Positions 19,303 to 58,995 of a stretch of 64,000 bases of DNA are shown in pieces. Within the stretch, counting starts at the first letter, position 1; every line of letters begins with the position of its first letter. The position numbers and the translations under genes are program-made. The notes below the pieces were generated by a model that did no database searches, was not told the origin of the DNA, and was given only the letters and a program-made list of their open reading frames with translations. Source of the DNA: Xanthostigma xanthostigma (Eukaryota; Arthropoda; Insecta; Raphidioptera; Raphidiidae); contig OY754464.1 of NCBI GenBank assembly GCA_963575645.1, positions 30,147,501-30,211,500 of the forward strand, given 5' to 3'.

Positions 19303-21355
19303 TAGCTGATACCCTCCCGCTTTGCTGGACGTAACAATACATCCCTATTTAAATCGAATTTTGTTCATAATTTGATGAGTTTTATTTTTTTTTTTGCGCG
19401 GAACCATAATTATTCTTTTTCTAAAATAAAATTAGTCTAAGTTACCCTTATAACATCAGCTATCTGCCAACAAAAGTCTCGTCCAAATCAGTCCAGTCGT
19501 TTCGGAGTTTAGCCGGAACAAACAGACAAACAAAAAATTTTGAAAATTGTTTTTTTTTTGTTATAAGTACCGTAGATATAAACTAGCGGAAACAATTAAA
19601 GGATCAAAAAAAATTTCCAAATTTTTCGAGGTTTTTCAAGTGGCTGTATTTCCCTTAAAAATTGTCGTACTGGAATTTTAAAAAAAGGATTTTAAAGCTC
19701 GAAGTTTCTAGTTTTGAGATCTTATGATGAAAAATTTTTTCAAGCAACGTGTTCCGCTCAATCCTAATGAATACCGAAGAAAAAAATTTTTCGAAATTTT
19801 TTCGGTTCTTTTTTTTGGTCTACGAACTTGTAAAAAATTTTTCCAACTTAACCACTATATGGATCGGATAACTTGTTCATTCAGCTTTAATTTGCTTTTT
19901 TGAAAAGTTCGATACGACCACTTCTCGCTGAGATATCGATCTTTGAATGGAAAAGGATCTCTTTGTCTTTAACCATCAATATCTCAGCAACCACTAATCG
20001 CAGAAGAAAATTAAGGAGGGTTTTGAAATCTTGAATAAATTTCCCACAAAAATCAGCTACGGTTTTTTGAAAAAAAATTTTTTTCTATTTTTACAATAAT
20101 TTGAAAAATCAAGGAAAAAAGGGCTTTTGGTGGCTTTTGGGATAATCAGGCGCTAAGTTGGAAATATCGAGAAAGCCAGTAATGTTGAGTGTGCCTTTTA
20201 CAGTTCAATATGCCCTCAAAAACCTCACAAAGTTTCAATTCAATCCATCGAGCCGTTTTTTTGTTTTATTCGATCGAATTTTTGAAAAAAAATTAAAGGA
20301 TCACGATTTTAACTTTAAATGATCTTTAACAAAATGCAAAAAAAAATGTTTTTTTCAGTTTTTTTATGCATTTTTATTGGTCAAAATGTTTAAATTTATG
20401 CGAAATTTATGCATTAGAGCGTGCACTTCTGCAAATTTTTTTTTGCATAAATTTAAACATTTTTACCAATAAAAATGCATAAAAAAACTGAAAAAAACAT
20501 TTTTTTTTTTGCATTTTGTTAAAGATCATTTAAAGTTAAGATCGTGATCCTTTAATTTTTTTTCAAAAATTCGATCGAATAAAACAAAAAAACGGCTCGA
20601 TGGATTGAATCGAACTTTGTGAGGTTTTTGAGGGCATATAGAACTGTAAAAGGCACACTCAACATTACTGGCTTTCTCGATATTTCCAACTTAGCGCCTG
20701 ATTATCCCAAAAGCCACCAAAAGCCCTTTTTTCCTTGATTTTTCAAATTAATGTAAAAAATAGAAAAAAAAAATTTTTCAAAAAACCGTAGCTGATTTTT
20801 GTGGGAAATTTATTCAAGATTTCAAAACCCTCCTTAATTTTCTTCTGCGATTAGTGGTTGCTGAGATATTGATGGTTAAAAACAAAGAGATCCTTTTCCA
20901 TTCAAAGATCGATATCTCAGCGAGAAGTGGTCGTATCGAACTTTTCAAAAAAGCAAATTAAAGCTGAATGAACAAGTTATCCGATCCATATAGTGGTTAA
21001 GTTGGAAAAATTTTTTACAAGTTCGTAGACCAAAAAAAAGAACCGAAAAAATTTCGAAAAATTTTTTTCTTCGGTATTCATTAGGATTGAGCGGAACACG
21101 TTGCTTGAAAAAATTTTTCATCATAAGATCTCAAAACTAGAAACTTCGAGCTTTAAAATCCTTTTTTTAAAATTCCAGTACGACAATTTTTAAGGGAAAT
21201 ACAGCCACTTGAAAAACCTCGAAAAATTTGGAAATTTTTTTTGATCCTTTAATTGTTTCCGCTAGTTTATATACTTTCATAGGCATTTATATAAAAGTTG
21301 TTATTTTGACATTACAAACAGACACTTCAATTTTATTTATCTGTATATAAATGAC
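19303..21355 (+). repeat. Family E repeat split by palindrome
   Basis: Left part 19303-19575 starts ACTAGCTGATACCC and includes CAGTCGTTTCGGAGTTTAGC and TATAAGTACCGTAGATAT. Right part 21273-21355 includes GTTGTTATTTTGACATTACA and AATTTTATTTATCTGTATA. Such sequence is common at insect RTE/SINE-type 3-prime ends. The right part recurs at 52571-52645, again interrupted by a different element at nearly the same internal place. Confidence 0.6.
19576..21272. repeat. 1.7-kb near-perfect palindrome
   Basis: The left half from ATATAAACTAGCGGAAACAA reads almost identically in reverse from 21272, with arms of about 825 bp and a loop of about 40 bp centred near 20424 (around GCGTGCACTTC). GATCCTTTAATT boxes occur at both the outer and inner ends of the arms, so each arm may itself be an element with inverted ends. 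No frame is open across it. It is inserted in family E. Arm identity is high throughout, suggesting youth or gene conversion. Confidence 0.85.
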
Positions 21356-27844: not shown

Positions 27845-28522
27845 GGTTCCACCAGGAAATCTCCCCTGAAAAAATCTCCCCGACAAAATCTCCCCGACAA
27901 AATCTCCCCACGACAAAATATCCCCACGACAAAATATCCTCAGACAAAATATCCTCAGACAAAATATCCCCGGAATTACAATTCGCATACCCGTTTATCG
28001 TTCACCCCGGAATTGTTTTTTTAAAAACTCCACATTTGCCCCTTCCCGTTTCACTGCGAGACAATTCGCATACCCCTTTATCGTTCACCCCGGAATTACA
28101 ATTCGCATACCCGTTTATCTTTCACCCCGGAATTGTTTTTTTAAAAACTCCACATTTGCCCCTTCCCGTTTCACTGCGAGACAATTCGCATACCCCTTTA
28201 TCGTTCACCCCGGAATTACAATTCGCATACCCCTTTATCGTTCACCCCGGAATTACAATTCGCATACCCGTTTATCGTTCACCCCGGAATTGTTTTTTTA
28301 AAAACTCCACATTTGCCCCTTCCCGTTTCACTGCGAGACAATTCGCATACCCCTTTATCGTTCACCCCGGAATTACAATTCGCATACCCGTTTATGTTTT
28401 GATAAAAAATAAATGTTATAATCAATAAAATTTTCTCGTGGGGATATTTTGTCATAGGGAGATTTTGTCGCGGGGAGATTTTGTCGGGGAGATTTTTTCA
28501 GGGGAGATTATATCGTGTTACC
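27845..28522. mobile_element. MULE-like element with 9-bp target duplication
   Basis: The direct repeat AATAAAATT flanks both sides (27836-27844 and 28523-28531). Ends start GGT and share ATCTCCCCTGA in inverted orientation. The left end holds about seven copies of a 14-16-bp unit (AAAATCTCCCCGAC and variants); the right end holds about four inverted copies. A 9-bp duplication and repetitive long ends suit Mutator-like (MULE) or foldback elements. The interior is a modular tandem array. The 130-codon open frame (28036-28428) is that array read as protein and is not a gene. Confidence 0.7.
27976..28396 (+). repeat. Two-module tandem array
   Basis: Module A (about 37 bp, AATTCGCATACCCSTTTATC then GTTCACCCCGG) and module B (about 46 bp, GTTTTTTTAAAAACTCCACA then a C-rich part ending CACTGCGAG) alternate as A-B-AA-B-AAA-B-AA. 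Copies are nearly identical, so the array is recent or kept uniform by unequal exchange. It fills the centre of the MULE-like element. Confidence 0.8.
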
Positions 28523-35038: not shown

Positions 35039-36054
35039 TCCCTATATTATTAAAAGAGCTAATCTTGTACCTATGTACCTATGTCCCTAAATATTTTCTC
35101 GAAAACGGCCCTAACGATTTGGATGAAATTTACTGAAAAGGGATTTTGGGGGGCAAAAAATCGTTTTAGCTAGGTCTCATCTCTCGAAAAAATCGTTTTC
35201 TTACAAATTTTATCATTATAAAAATCAATTTTTTGACGTATGAAAATACTTAAATATTGTAAGTAGGTTTTGGAATTTTATACAATGAAACAATAATTGT
35301 TTTCAAAATATTATGACAGTTAATCTTTAATTACTATCCAAGTGAGACTTAATTAAAATAAATACGTATATGAAAGAAAGTTAAAAACAATTATTATTAT
35401 GTATAGCCAGGTGAGTAATTTTAATAAATAAATTTTTAACCTAAATTTGAAGCGAAAGATGCAATATCATAGATCAAGATGACGGCGAATCAGTTTTACA
35501 AGTACCGGATTGCCATAAGGGCCGACAATCCTCTCCACAAAGGAGTCAAACTGTTTCAGCAATATTATCTTATTGCTCCTTATATGGAGAGCCGAAGGTT
35601 CGACTAGTGTCGTTTGCAACCGAGCGGGGCGCAGCCCCGTGAGGTAAGACTGTAACAAAGGTGGAGACGTAGGCTCCACAAAGGGAAGCGAAGCTTCCCC
35701 AGAGAACCTACGGTTCTTATATGGAGAGCCGAAGGCTCGACTAGTATCGTTTACAACCGAGCGGGGCGCAGCCCCGCGAGGTAAGACTGTAACAAAGGTG
35801 GAGACGTAGGCTCCACAAAGGGAAGCGAAGCTTCCCCAGAGAACCTACGGTTCTTATATGGAGAGCCGAAGGCTCGACTAGTATCGTTTACAACCGAGCG
35901 GGGCGCAGCCCCGCGAGGTAAGACTGTAACAAAGGTGGAGAAGTAGGCTCCACAAAGGGAAGCGACAGAGAACCTACGGTTCCAAAGTTTTGGCGATATC
36001 AGCATATCAGTATTTTATTTTACTTTCCGAGCAAAGCTCGGTCACCCAGGTACT
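35039..36054 (+). mobile_element. Helitron-like element with hairpin-string array
   Basis: Starts TCCCTATATTATTAAAAGAG after an A, then CTCGAAAACGGCC and GATTTGGATGAAATTTACTG, typical of Helitron 5-prime regions. It ends with hairpin CCGAGC-AAA-GCTCGG and TCACCCAGGTACT. The centre (35580-35990) holds three 137-bp tandem units. Two relatives exist here: a fragment at 1499-1641 and a deleted form at 63482-63821. No Rep/helicase coding was found, so it is non-autonomous. The end is not the canonical CTRR. Confidence 0.65.
35580..35990 (+). repeat. 137-bp tandem units made of small hairpins
   Basis: Units start at 35580, 35717 and 35854. Each contains five small inverted repeats, each with a 3-nt loop: GAGCC-GAA-GGCTC, GCGGGGC-GCA-GCCCCGC, GTGGAGAC-GTA-GGCTCCAC (one mismatched pair), GGGAAGC-GAA-GCTTCCC and GAACC-TAC-GGTTC. 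The third unit lacks the GAA-loop GGGAAGC hairpin's right half. GNA triloops closed by C-G pairs are known to make very stable DNA mini-hairpins. Open frames across the array (minus strand) are by-products. Confidence 0.85.
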
Positions 36055-51560: not shown

Positions 51561-51584
51561 AAGTACCGTATATAATTTCATATG

Positions 51585-52570
51585 TGTTACGCTCAAAGAA
51601 CGAAAACGCTCAGTGAGCGAAAAAATAGCTCACAACGCGTTGTGGTCACAGTAAAACATCCACATCGCGAAATTCGTGTTATGGCTCTAATGAAAACGCG
51701 CACGACGCGTTGTGGCAATCACAGAAAGACCAAATAGCGAAATTCGTGTCGTGGCTGACATGCTATTCGATCTCAACGCGTTGTGGCAATGAAGAAAAGC
51801 CATGACGCGTTCTGAGCATTCATTGTTTTAACCATATCACGACGTACAGGTTGTAACTTGTGTCCCTGTGTCGGCTCTAGATGTCAAGTTGATTTAATCG
51901 ATATGTAGTCTGAACCAGATAAAGATTATAAATTTATTATGAATTATCAAGATCACTTGAAAAAATAAATTTTATTTCTATTTCTATTTCTAAATTTACT
52001 ATATTAAGACCAATCGAAACGACGACTGCTGAAGAAGTAGCATATCAACTTTTAGATATATTTTGTTTGTTCGGCGCTCCATGTATACTGCAAAGCGACA
52101 ACGGTCGTGAATTTTCAAATAAAGTCATCAAAAATTTAGCTGAAATGTGGCCAGGGATGAAACTTGTTCATGGAAAACCTCGACATTCTCAAAGTCAAGG
52201 TTCGCTCAGGATCTATATTAGTGCAGTGATTTTATAAAATAAAAAATATTTCCTAAGGACATCTACCAAAACGTTTCCAGCCTAGGCCTAGTAGGATCCA
52301 TATCGGAAAGTAGTGTGCGTCGTAATCAAATAATAGTCCATACGCGTCATGGCCTTTCTTCTTCATTGCCACAACGCGTTGAGATCGAATAGCATGTCAG
52401 CCACGACACGAATTTCGCTATTTGGTCTTTCTGTGATTGCCACAACGCGTCGTGCGCGTTTTCATTAGAGCCATAACACGAATTTCGCCATGTGGATGTT
52501 TTACTGTGACCACAACGCGTTGTGAGCTATTTTTCCGCTCACTGAGCGTTTTCGATCTTTGAGCGTAACA
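51585..52570. mobile_element. Ginger-like DNA transposon, defective
   Basis: 986 bp. Inverted arms 51585-51810 and 52342-52570 are nearly identical and start TGTTACGCTCAAAG, so the element reads TGT...ACA. TATG is duplicated on both sides (51581-51584 and 52571-52574). Each arm has repeated MluI-like cores: CACAACGCGTTGTGG, CACGACGCGTTGTGG and CAACGCGTTGTGG, with GCGAAATTCGTGT between. TG..CA-type ends, a 4-bp duplication, long inverted ends and a Gypsy-type integrase remnant inside together suit the Ginger superfamily of cut-and-paste elements. The exact Ginger group is not established. Confidence 0.75.
51849..52237 (+). pseudogene. Gypsy/Ginger-type integrase core fragment
   Basis: Two plus-strand frames together show most of an integrase (rve) core similar to the transposon-derived KRBA2/SCAND3-type integrases. 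The first (about 51849-51959) reads CQVDLIDM, giving the first catalytic Asp, then an in-frame TAG (51906-51908), then YKFIMNYQDHL. A spacer of about 32 bp with TTTCTA repeats follows and shifts the frame. The second (51992-52237) holds FGAPCILQSDNGREF, with the second catalytic Asp, and HGKPRHSQSQGS. Likeness ends at 52204, before the catalytic Glu. One stop, one frameshift and a lost third residue make it inactive. Confidence 0.8.
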
Positions 52571-52700
52571 TATGCATTTAGTAAAAAGCTGTTATTTTGA
52601 CATTAACAGATACTTCAATTTTATTTATATGTATAGATATAGATAAAGCTAGTTTAATGCGCGTATAATAAGGAAAGTATTACAAATATTAGCACTGTGT

Positions 52701-58060: not shown

Positions 58061-58995
58061 AATAGCTTAAGCTCCCATGACACAAAAAGTTACCCCAAAG
58101 AACACCTCAAAATTATAAAGTGAAAATGGCTGAAAAACATGTCAGAAACATGTTACGCCCGCCAGACAAGTAAAAATTTGTTAATTGTTATTTTTTATGA
58201 GTTTTTGAAATTTAAAAAAAAAACATGATTTTACTTTCCAAAACACCTGCTTGAAATTTATACAATTTGTAGTAAATAATGAACCATTTTTGAAAAAATT
58301 GGTCTGGCTGACAATTTTTGTTAATAAGCTAGCCAGACTTCATTTGTTATAAACTATTTTTTTTTATGAAAATACATTTCATAACACCTCCTTGAATTTT
58401 TTTTTTAAATAAAGTTTAAGATCTCTTCTATCTAATACAACTGGTCTGGCTGACATTTTTTGTTAATAAATTGGTCAGAATTCATTCGTTATAAAATTTT
58501 TTGTTTATGAAGTCTGTCATAGTAAAAAACATTTTTTCGCTGACAGACCAATTTTTATGCATAAAATAGATGTCAAACCTTCGTTCAGAAAAAAAATTAA
58601 GGTGGTGTTTTGACACGGCCCTTGTAAAAGCTAATTTGTTTATAAAAAAACGCTGTCACGGCGCTTAAAAATTGAATTTGGCATGGTAAAAAACAATATT
58701 TTGATGAAAAATGTATTAAAGTATAAAAAAGGGATCTACCGTATTAATTTAGAATAAAAAAAAAAAAATTGTTTTCTAGTTAGCAACGATTATACTATAT
58801 TTTTCATTAAAAATGTTGGAAAGTAAAATCATGTTTTTTTTTTAAATTTCAAAAATTCATAAAAAATAACAATTAACAAATTTTTACTTGTCTGGCGGGC
58901 GTAACATGTTTCTGACATGTTTTTCAGCCATTTTCACTTTATAATTTTGAGGTGTTCTTTGGGGTAACTTTTTGTGTCATGGGAGCCTAAACTAT
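58061..58995. mobile_element. 935-bp element with ~195-bp inverted ends
   Basis: ATAGYTTARGCTCCCATGAC then ACAAAAAGTTACCCCAAAG... runs inward about 195 bp on both sides, including ACATGTCAGAAACATGTTAC and GCCCGCCAGACAAGTAAAAA. TA-type flanks are possible. The middle repeats GGTCTGGCTGACA..TTTTTGTTAATAA twice (58301 and 58441), with inverted partner GCCAGACTT. No coding content. Confidence 0.7.

Follow-up and report, generated by a model that had tools for sequence, protein, structure and literature searches.

Among described transposons, the closest counterparts of the element reported here are the Ginger elements. Ginger2/Tdd elements, in the description of Bao et al. (2010; PMC2836005), have TGTNR ends, 4-bp target-site duplications at RTATAY sites, terminal inverted repeats (TIRs) of about 50–180 bp in the animal families (260 bp in TDD-4 and 297 bp in TDD-5), and a transposase with H2C2 and DDE parts that is without the GPY/F or YPYY motifs. 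Ginger1 elements are likewise DNA transposons with an integrase-like transposase, TGTNR ends, long TIRs and 4-bp duplications, but they duplicate CCGG or CCGT (CCGT/ACGG), carry GPY/F and YPYY motifs and OTU or Ulp1 domains, and excise by a mechanism that the same description calls unknown (PMC2836005). Another account gives the Ginger2 duplications as 4 or 5 bp and describes IS3EU/GingerRoot, also eukaryotic DNA transposons with a DDE enzyme, as having 6-bp duplications, mostly TA..TA ends and no HHCC motif (PMC10045372). Related enzymes are found beyond the transposons themselves: two papers relate that the host gene KRBA2, whose integrase core is said to be of GINGER2 origin, was thought to derive from a GINGER2 transposon (PMC13359818, PMC12139883, both with reference to Llorens et al., 2012, for how SCAND3 and KRBA2 arose from transposons), and KRBA2 and SCAND3 are both listed among rve-derived host genes (PMC3257199). 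The endogenous nimaviruses of sesarmid crabs, inserted in AT/TA repeats, also have a Ginger2-like DDE enzyme and TIRs, but there the enzyme serves viral genomes of 265–285 kb rather than a 1-kb non-autonomous element such as the one described here (PMC10871703).

The stretch that we analysed (hereafter the window) comprises 64 kb of Xanthostigma xanthostigma contig OY754464.1 (G000:C1:30147501-30211500), from a home genome of 623,323,696 bases on 28 contigs. It holds a 986-bp element on the forward strand (Table 1) that we assign, with a probability of about 0.9, to a cut-and-paste family of the Ginger2/Tdd type, as a non-autonomous, internally deleted member; the assignment is set by the published diagnostic features. 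The original prediction had called the element Ginger-like, a name that can now be sharpened to Ginger2/Tdd on the basis of TATA-type 4-bp duplications at RTATAY, TGTNR ends, and relatives with an H2C2-DDE enzyme that is without GPY/F and YPYY. The structure that it had described was recovered by BLAST and by direct reading: the inverted arms, 226 and 229 bp long, are 96.9% identical (BLAST E 2.5e-107) with 3 mismatches in their outer 211 bp, the termini are TGTTAC..GTAACA, thus TGTTA at both ends, and TATG stands on either flank. Compared with the Ginger2/Tdd description, these arms exceed the range of the animal families and fall within that of the group only if TDD-4 and TDD-5 are counted (PMC2836005). 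No further copy of the arm was found by BLAST inside the window, and the integrase remnant is the sole recognisable content of the 531 bp between the arms (one frame scanned with Pfam).

Table 1. Features of the element and of the repeat in which it lies (positions within the window).
Feature	Position	Strand	Basis or remark
Left target-site duplication TATG	51581..51584	.	flank comparison; empty site
Whole non-autonomous element, probably Ginger2-type, 986 bp	51585..52570	+	arms, ends, other copies
Left terminal inverted repeat, start TGTTACGCTCAAAG	51585..51810	+	arm alignment
Palindromic box 1, CACAACGCGTTGTG, perfect 14-bp palindrome	51631..51644	.	
Palindromic box 2, CACGACGCGTTGTG	51701..51714	.	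70 bp inward of box 1
Palindromic box 3, CTCAACGCGTTGTG	51772..51785	.	71 bp inward of box 2
5′ internal deletion junction, approximate (within ~15 bases)	51862..51875	+	inferred from 8-copy alignment
Integrase remnant, first piece (VDLIDM 51888–51905, TAG 51906–51908)	51876..51959	+	
29-bp A/T-rich frameshifting insertion	51961..51989	+	copy alignment
Integrase remnant, second piece (QSDNG 52091–52105; QSQGS 52190–52204)	51992..52204	+	
3′ internal deletion junction, approximate, common to the L081 copy	52203..52221	+	inferred from copy alignment
Right terminal inverted repeat, end GTAACA; boxes 52370–52383, 52441–52454, 52511–52524	52342..52570	-	
Right target-site duplication TATG	52571..52574	.	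flank comparison; empty site
Disrupted repeat (family E), left part including first TATG	51561..51584	+	genomic copies
Disrupted repeat (family E), right part	52571..52645	+	window paralogue; genome search
Undisrupted family E paralogue, site TAGG	21268..21347	+	joined-flank match

The element belongs to a multicopy family. A search of the 623-Mb genome with the arm, as the original prediction had proposed, gave 41 matches including the window when the best 40 of 395 candidates were scored in a first pass; within that sample the 40 further matches are 97–99% identical, two of them being the ends of one element, and this degree of identity suggests recent activity of the family. A scan of viral contigs with the 15-base arm end gave 42 matches of which the longest, 21 bases at 95%, is at chance level. 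Where both ends of a copy could be read, the 4-bp flanks are identical in eight of nine cases, the window included: TATG in the window, CATA in L044 and L047, GATA in L046, and TATA in L045, L050, L081 and L082, the exception being L083 with AAAC/TAAC. The original prediction had also proposed listing target duplications over many copies, and had named as observations against its reading other copies without 4-bp duplications and an integrase-like sequence confined to this locus and continuous with an unrelated retroelement; what we found is the duplication in nearly all two-ended copies and, as described below, the integrase elsewhere in the genome.

With readings from one-ended copies (20 places, from which L116 was dropped as the same copy as L083), the 4-mers of 27 copies are TATA in 13, GATA in 4, TATG, CATA and TATC in 2 each, and TACA, TTTA, TGTA and GGTA in 1 each; in the one-ended copies the 4-mer was read towards the matching arm, and GATA and TATC may therefore represent one site seen from its two sides. 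Position by position the counts are T20 A24 T26 A23, the base preceding the 4-mer is a purine in 25 of 27 copies, and the base following it is a pyrimidine in 7 of 8. From the composition of the window, TATA would be expected in 0.3 of 27 copies, against the 13 observed, and adding the one-ended L048 (TATA) and L049 (TAGA) brings TATA to 14 of 29. Judged from these sequences, the target site of the window family is RTATAY, as in Ginger2/Tdd.

The repeat interrupted by the element, family E, is present in high copy number and provides the empty site. Within the window, the joined flanks match the undisrupted paralogue at 86% over 80 bp, ungapped at the joint, and the site there reads TAGG. A genome search with the right flank including TATG returned 1082 candidates, of which the best 40 were scored. 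From these we set aside the window copy and compared the 60 bases around the site in the first 16 listed of the remaining 39. In each of the 16, a single TATG is followed by CATTTAGTAAAAAGCT; agreement on TATG at the site was favoured by a query that started with it, whereas the occurrence of a single 4-mer between matching flanks was not. To the left of the site most of the copies continue like the left flank of the window: over 16 columns, 154 of 256 positions agree in register as against 63–92 of 256 in six shifted registers, although L122, L124 and L132 have no visible continuation of this kind. The lone 4-mer between matching flanks in these uninserted copies shows that insertion of the window element duplicated 4 bp. 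Taken alone, the window copy could also be read as carrying a 6-bp duplication, because the target is CATATG and the element ends in CA; of the eight other two-ended copies, seven have equal 4-mers, and, among the copies measured for it, a longer equal stretch at standard ends was seen only in L082, which lies in a TATATA run. The empty site that the original prediction had taken from the disrupted family E sequence is thus upheld by the paralogue and the genomic copies alike, while its ‘dating by nesting’ is right as to order, the disrupted repeat having come first, and yields nothing beyond order.

Inside the element, the broken integrase with two catalytic Asp motifs is present as had been predicted, and to this we add the loss of the zinc-finger part and of the catalytic Glu, by which the window copy differs from the Ginger2/Tdd transposase as described (PMC2836005). 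The motif QVDLIDM (51885–51905) is followed directly by a stop, QSDNG (within ILQSDNGREF) lies in a different frame from this first Asp motif, and the frame of the second piece ends at QSQGS, where unrelated sequence (reading QSQGSLR) replaces the expected Glu. The 29-bp insertion is missing in L081, the sole other aligned copy that retains that stretch. The second piece has a weak match to the Pfam rve profile (E 5.6e-5; 23.8 bits, under the curated cut-off of 32.6), and in the PDB the integrase piece finds retroviral integrases, none better than E 4e-4. Searches with the integrase piece found 10 pattern-matching stretches in viral contigs and 75 in a collection of genome contigs, none of them confirmed, and no tblastn match in phages and plasmids; degenerate motif scans gave 0 matches, and Rfam and tRNA scans of the 64-kb window were empty.

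Relatives with open frames occur in the same genome. A protein search of the genome with the integrase piece returned 1239 candidates, of which the best 150 were scored, and 18 integrase loci (L081–L098) were examined with 8.5 kb around each. A TIR pair with identical 4-bp flanks encloses the match in 11 of the 18 (L081, L082, L084, L087, L088, L089, L091, L092, L093, L094 and L095), a count to which L081 and L082, as part of the window family, do not contribute independently; the flanks are TATA in nine, including L092, whose position in a TA run means that its flanks say little, TATC in L087 and TACA in L094. Against the Ginger2 reading stand the unlike flanks of L083, the TATA/TATC flanks of L090, and five loci (L085, L086, L096, L097 and L098) in which no TIR pair was found around the match within the 8.5 kb.

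Three of these relatives, L084, L089 and L091, combine an open frame with TIRs and a TATA duplication. L089 and L091, both 2515 bp, have arms that are 100% identical over 241–243 bp including the duplication, TATA duplications and an open frame of 504 codons between stops (in L089 with its first Met at codon 25), and are possibly active, as far as their sequences tell. L084, 2303 bp long, also has a TATA duplication; its frame runs to 473 codons, the first Met being codon 7, and its identity to the window integrase piece is 66%, the open-frame integrases in TIR elements ranging from 55 to 66%. The frames of L089 and L084 both have the H2C2 spacing, both Asp motifs and QSQGSxER, hence all three of the D, D and E residues, and neither matched the GPY/F or YPYY patterns, a lack that the window copy is too short to show. 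Pfam reported H2C2 in L084 below its cut-off (E 5.1e-4) and did not report it in L089. The termini of the relatives are TGTTA, TGTCG and TGTCA. A structure predicted for the L089 transposase is of low confidence (mean pLDDT 50.7, pTM 0.37, with blocks of 34–82 across residues 51–260) and is a model usable for fold class only; its first PDB match, the PFV integrase (TM-score 0.24 by query), agrees with a profile search of the same protein that reached PFV at E 1.1e-19.

Several further features were seen at the integrase loci. The 504-codon frame ends in a cysteine-rich tail. At L087 the integrase frame is held by a 7.9-kb TGTTACCG..CGGTAACA pair with TATC flanks (L087:43-7928), and inside this lies a further 1139-bp TIR element with TATA flanks, so that Ginger2-like insertions are nested there. 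At L099 (G000:C1:2394500-2403500) and L100 (G000:C1:6382000-6391000) there is an LTR-type element in which a gag frame (341 aa) overlaps a 633-aa frame holding an aspartic protease, H2C2, an integrase and a Tf2-like SH3 domain; Pfam reported no reverse transcriptase domain in L099. Dozens among the 150 scored integrase matches (of 1239 candidates) have open frames of about 622–637 aa and presumably belong to this L099/L100 family.

How far do these data separate Ginger2 from its neighbours? The integrase of our element may be KRBA2-like. The original prediction had inferred a Ginger-like or new related group on the ground that KRBA2-type integrases are usually treated as host-domesticated genes; the contrast falls, KRBA2 being already tied to GINGER2 in print (PMC13359818, PMC12139883). 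KRBA2 and SCAND3 differ from the present sequence in being genes of the host, where ours is a mobile element. A group apart from Ginger1, Ginger2 and IS3EU/GingerRoot, yet with the target and ends of Ginger2, might be argued from the fact that our assignment was made by described features and not by protein identity, and from the cysteine-rich C-terminus of the 504-codon relative, which we did not find in the Ginger description (PMC2836005). We consider such a group improbable and unnecessary: wherever a Ginger2 feature lent itself to testing, in the family or in relatives, it is present (the TIR length only with TDD-4 and TDD-5 counted), and the KRBA2 likeness, if it holds, itself leads back to Ginger2. 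Membership in Ginger1 is very improbable and is contradicted by the features examined, despite the enzyme type, ends, long TIRs and duplication length in common; CCGG- or CCGT-type duplications occur in 0 of 27 copies, GPY/F and YPYY are missing in L084 and L089, and Pfam reported neither OTU nor Ulp1 domains in the seven transposase-type frames scanned. IS3EU/GingerRoot is likewise rejected, the duplications here being of 4 bp and the ends TGT..ACA.

A retroelement source must also be weighed, namely that a fragment of an LTR retrotransposon integrase was caught by chance between inverted repeats. The genome is rich in Gypsy-type integrases, which match with an identity of about 40% (among the best 150 of 1239 candidates scored), and in a tree of integrase cores they form a clade of their own (1.000, on a long branch) that joins beside the window group, where the support at the two nodes is low (0.359 and 0.849), so that the tree of short cores, taken alone, is compatible with a retroelement origin. 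The nearest neighbour of the window core in that tree is L052, which is identical with the L081 copy (support 0.841). However, the integrase of the window recurs, at 94% and 89% identity, in L081 and L082, two other elements with window-type arms, related open-frame integrases reside in TIR elements, and the arms are inverted and not direct LTRs, and we reject the chance capture as barely credible. No better placed is the capture by a MITE of a decayed exon from a KRBA2/SCAND3-like host gene, a source suggested by the listing of both among rve-derived genes (PMC3257199), for what remains of a single transposase differs, with partial overlap, between the window and L081, L046 and L082, as internal deletion predicts, and the three best integrase matches after the window itself (93, 90 and 77%; 150 of 1239 candidates scored) are deletion forms that all lie in or beside elements with window-type arms.

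The preferred reading, a deleted Ginger2/Tdd-type element, can be followed further in an alignment of eight copies. These have in common a left part of about 265–277 bp, shorter in L046, and a right part of about 349 bp, reduced to 194 bp in L046, with unrelated middles in L044, L045, L047 and L050. Of the transposase, L046 retains the stretch around the first Asp motif, L082 the second Asp motif with the Glu region, and L081 nearly the same integrase piece as the window copy. At the 5′ junction of the window copy, the left side is the upstream part common to other copies and the right side consists of transposase codons. The window copy and L081 have both deletion junctions in common (908 of 946 compared bases identical, 270 gap columns), yet they lie on different contigs with different duplications (C1 with TATG and C5 with TATA), which indicates that the deleted form itself moved and, as it is without an enzyme, that it moved in trans. 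No open-frame copy with exactly window-type arms was found among the 150 of 1239 candidates scored, and the window family may therefore now be stranded.

Target duplication, multiplication and movement of the deleted form can be read from the copies, and around them we propose, as most likely, a course of events in which excision, arm binding and gap repair are the presumed steps. An autonomous ancestor would have carried the gene for an H2C2-DDE transposase, which, once bound to the arms, excised the element at its TGT..ACA ends and inserted these into the two target strands at RTATAY with a 4-bp stagger. Most of the gene would have been lost when a donor gap was misrepaired, and the deleted forms would have been moved in trans, by the transposase of the lost parent or of a related element, and so have multiplied. 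The window copy would then have landed in a family E repeat and since decayed, acquiring the stop and the 29-bp frameshift.

The arms of the window element contain a ladder of palindromic boxes that we did not find mentioned in the Ginger2/Tdd description (PMC2836005). Boxes that fit C(A/T)C(A/G)ACGCGTTGTG begin at three places, 51631, 51701 and 51772, at spacings of 70 and 71 bp, and two copies of GCGAAATTCGTGT, 70 bp apart, lie between them. We compared six arms, all from this one genome, with 200 shuffles that preserved base composition only. Self-match at a fixed offset exceeded all shuffles in five of the six, with offsets of 70 in the window, 78 and then 68 in L089, 69 in L094, 81 in the inner element of L087, and 38 (by one point) in L084; the L095 arm did not exceed all 200, and the period is thus near 70–80 in four of six. 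For the best palindrome, L089 (24 bp) is the one arm that beats every shuffle; the window and the L087 element equal the shuffled maximum, and the palindromes of L084, L094 and L095 are unremarkable. The box CAACGCGTTG stands at arm position 49–58 both in L087:5694-6021 and in window 51585-51810, families with different ends.

It is at most a fair guess that the ladder is an array of putative enzyme-binding sites. A retroviral intasome is not known to contact more than the tip of the end. We suggest tentatively, as a wider conjecture that may well prove wrong, that Ginger2-type arms are ladders of palindromic boxes about 70 bp apart, family-specific in sequence and similar in layout, with several integrase dimers lined up in register on each end, in an end complex larger than the retroviral intasome. 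Were the ladder a binding array, it would be a feature new to the group relative to its description (PMC2836005).

This unusual ladder aside, the element is a typical representative of an already known type, one of many closely similar copies in its genome, and the Ginger2 origin of KRBA2 is already published (PMC13359818, PMC12139883) and not new here. Its interest is as a clean, sequence-level case of the Ginger2 type, with the target rule, the empty site, movement in trans and open-frame relatives all in one genome, and the pair L089 and L091, given their identical arms, could open a Ginger mechanism to bench test.

Other repeats are found in the window. Inverted arms of 566 bp (19576–20141 and 20707–21272), 96% complementary and with more inverted repeats between them, end beside the family E paralogue at 21268. 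Two shorter inverted-repeat pairs lie at 58062–58241/58816–58995 (180 bp at 98%) and 2642–2791/3001–3150 (150 bp at 99%), and tandem arrays with units of 137 bp and 120/157 bp, at 98% identity, occupy 35579–35965 and 27968–28395, respectively.
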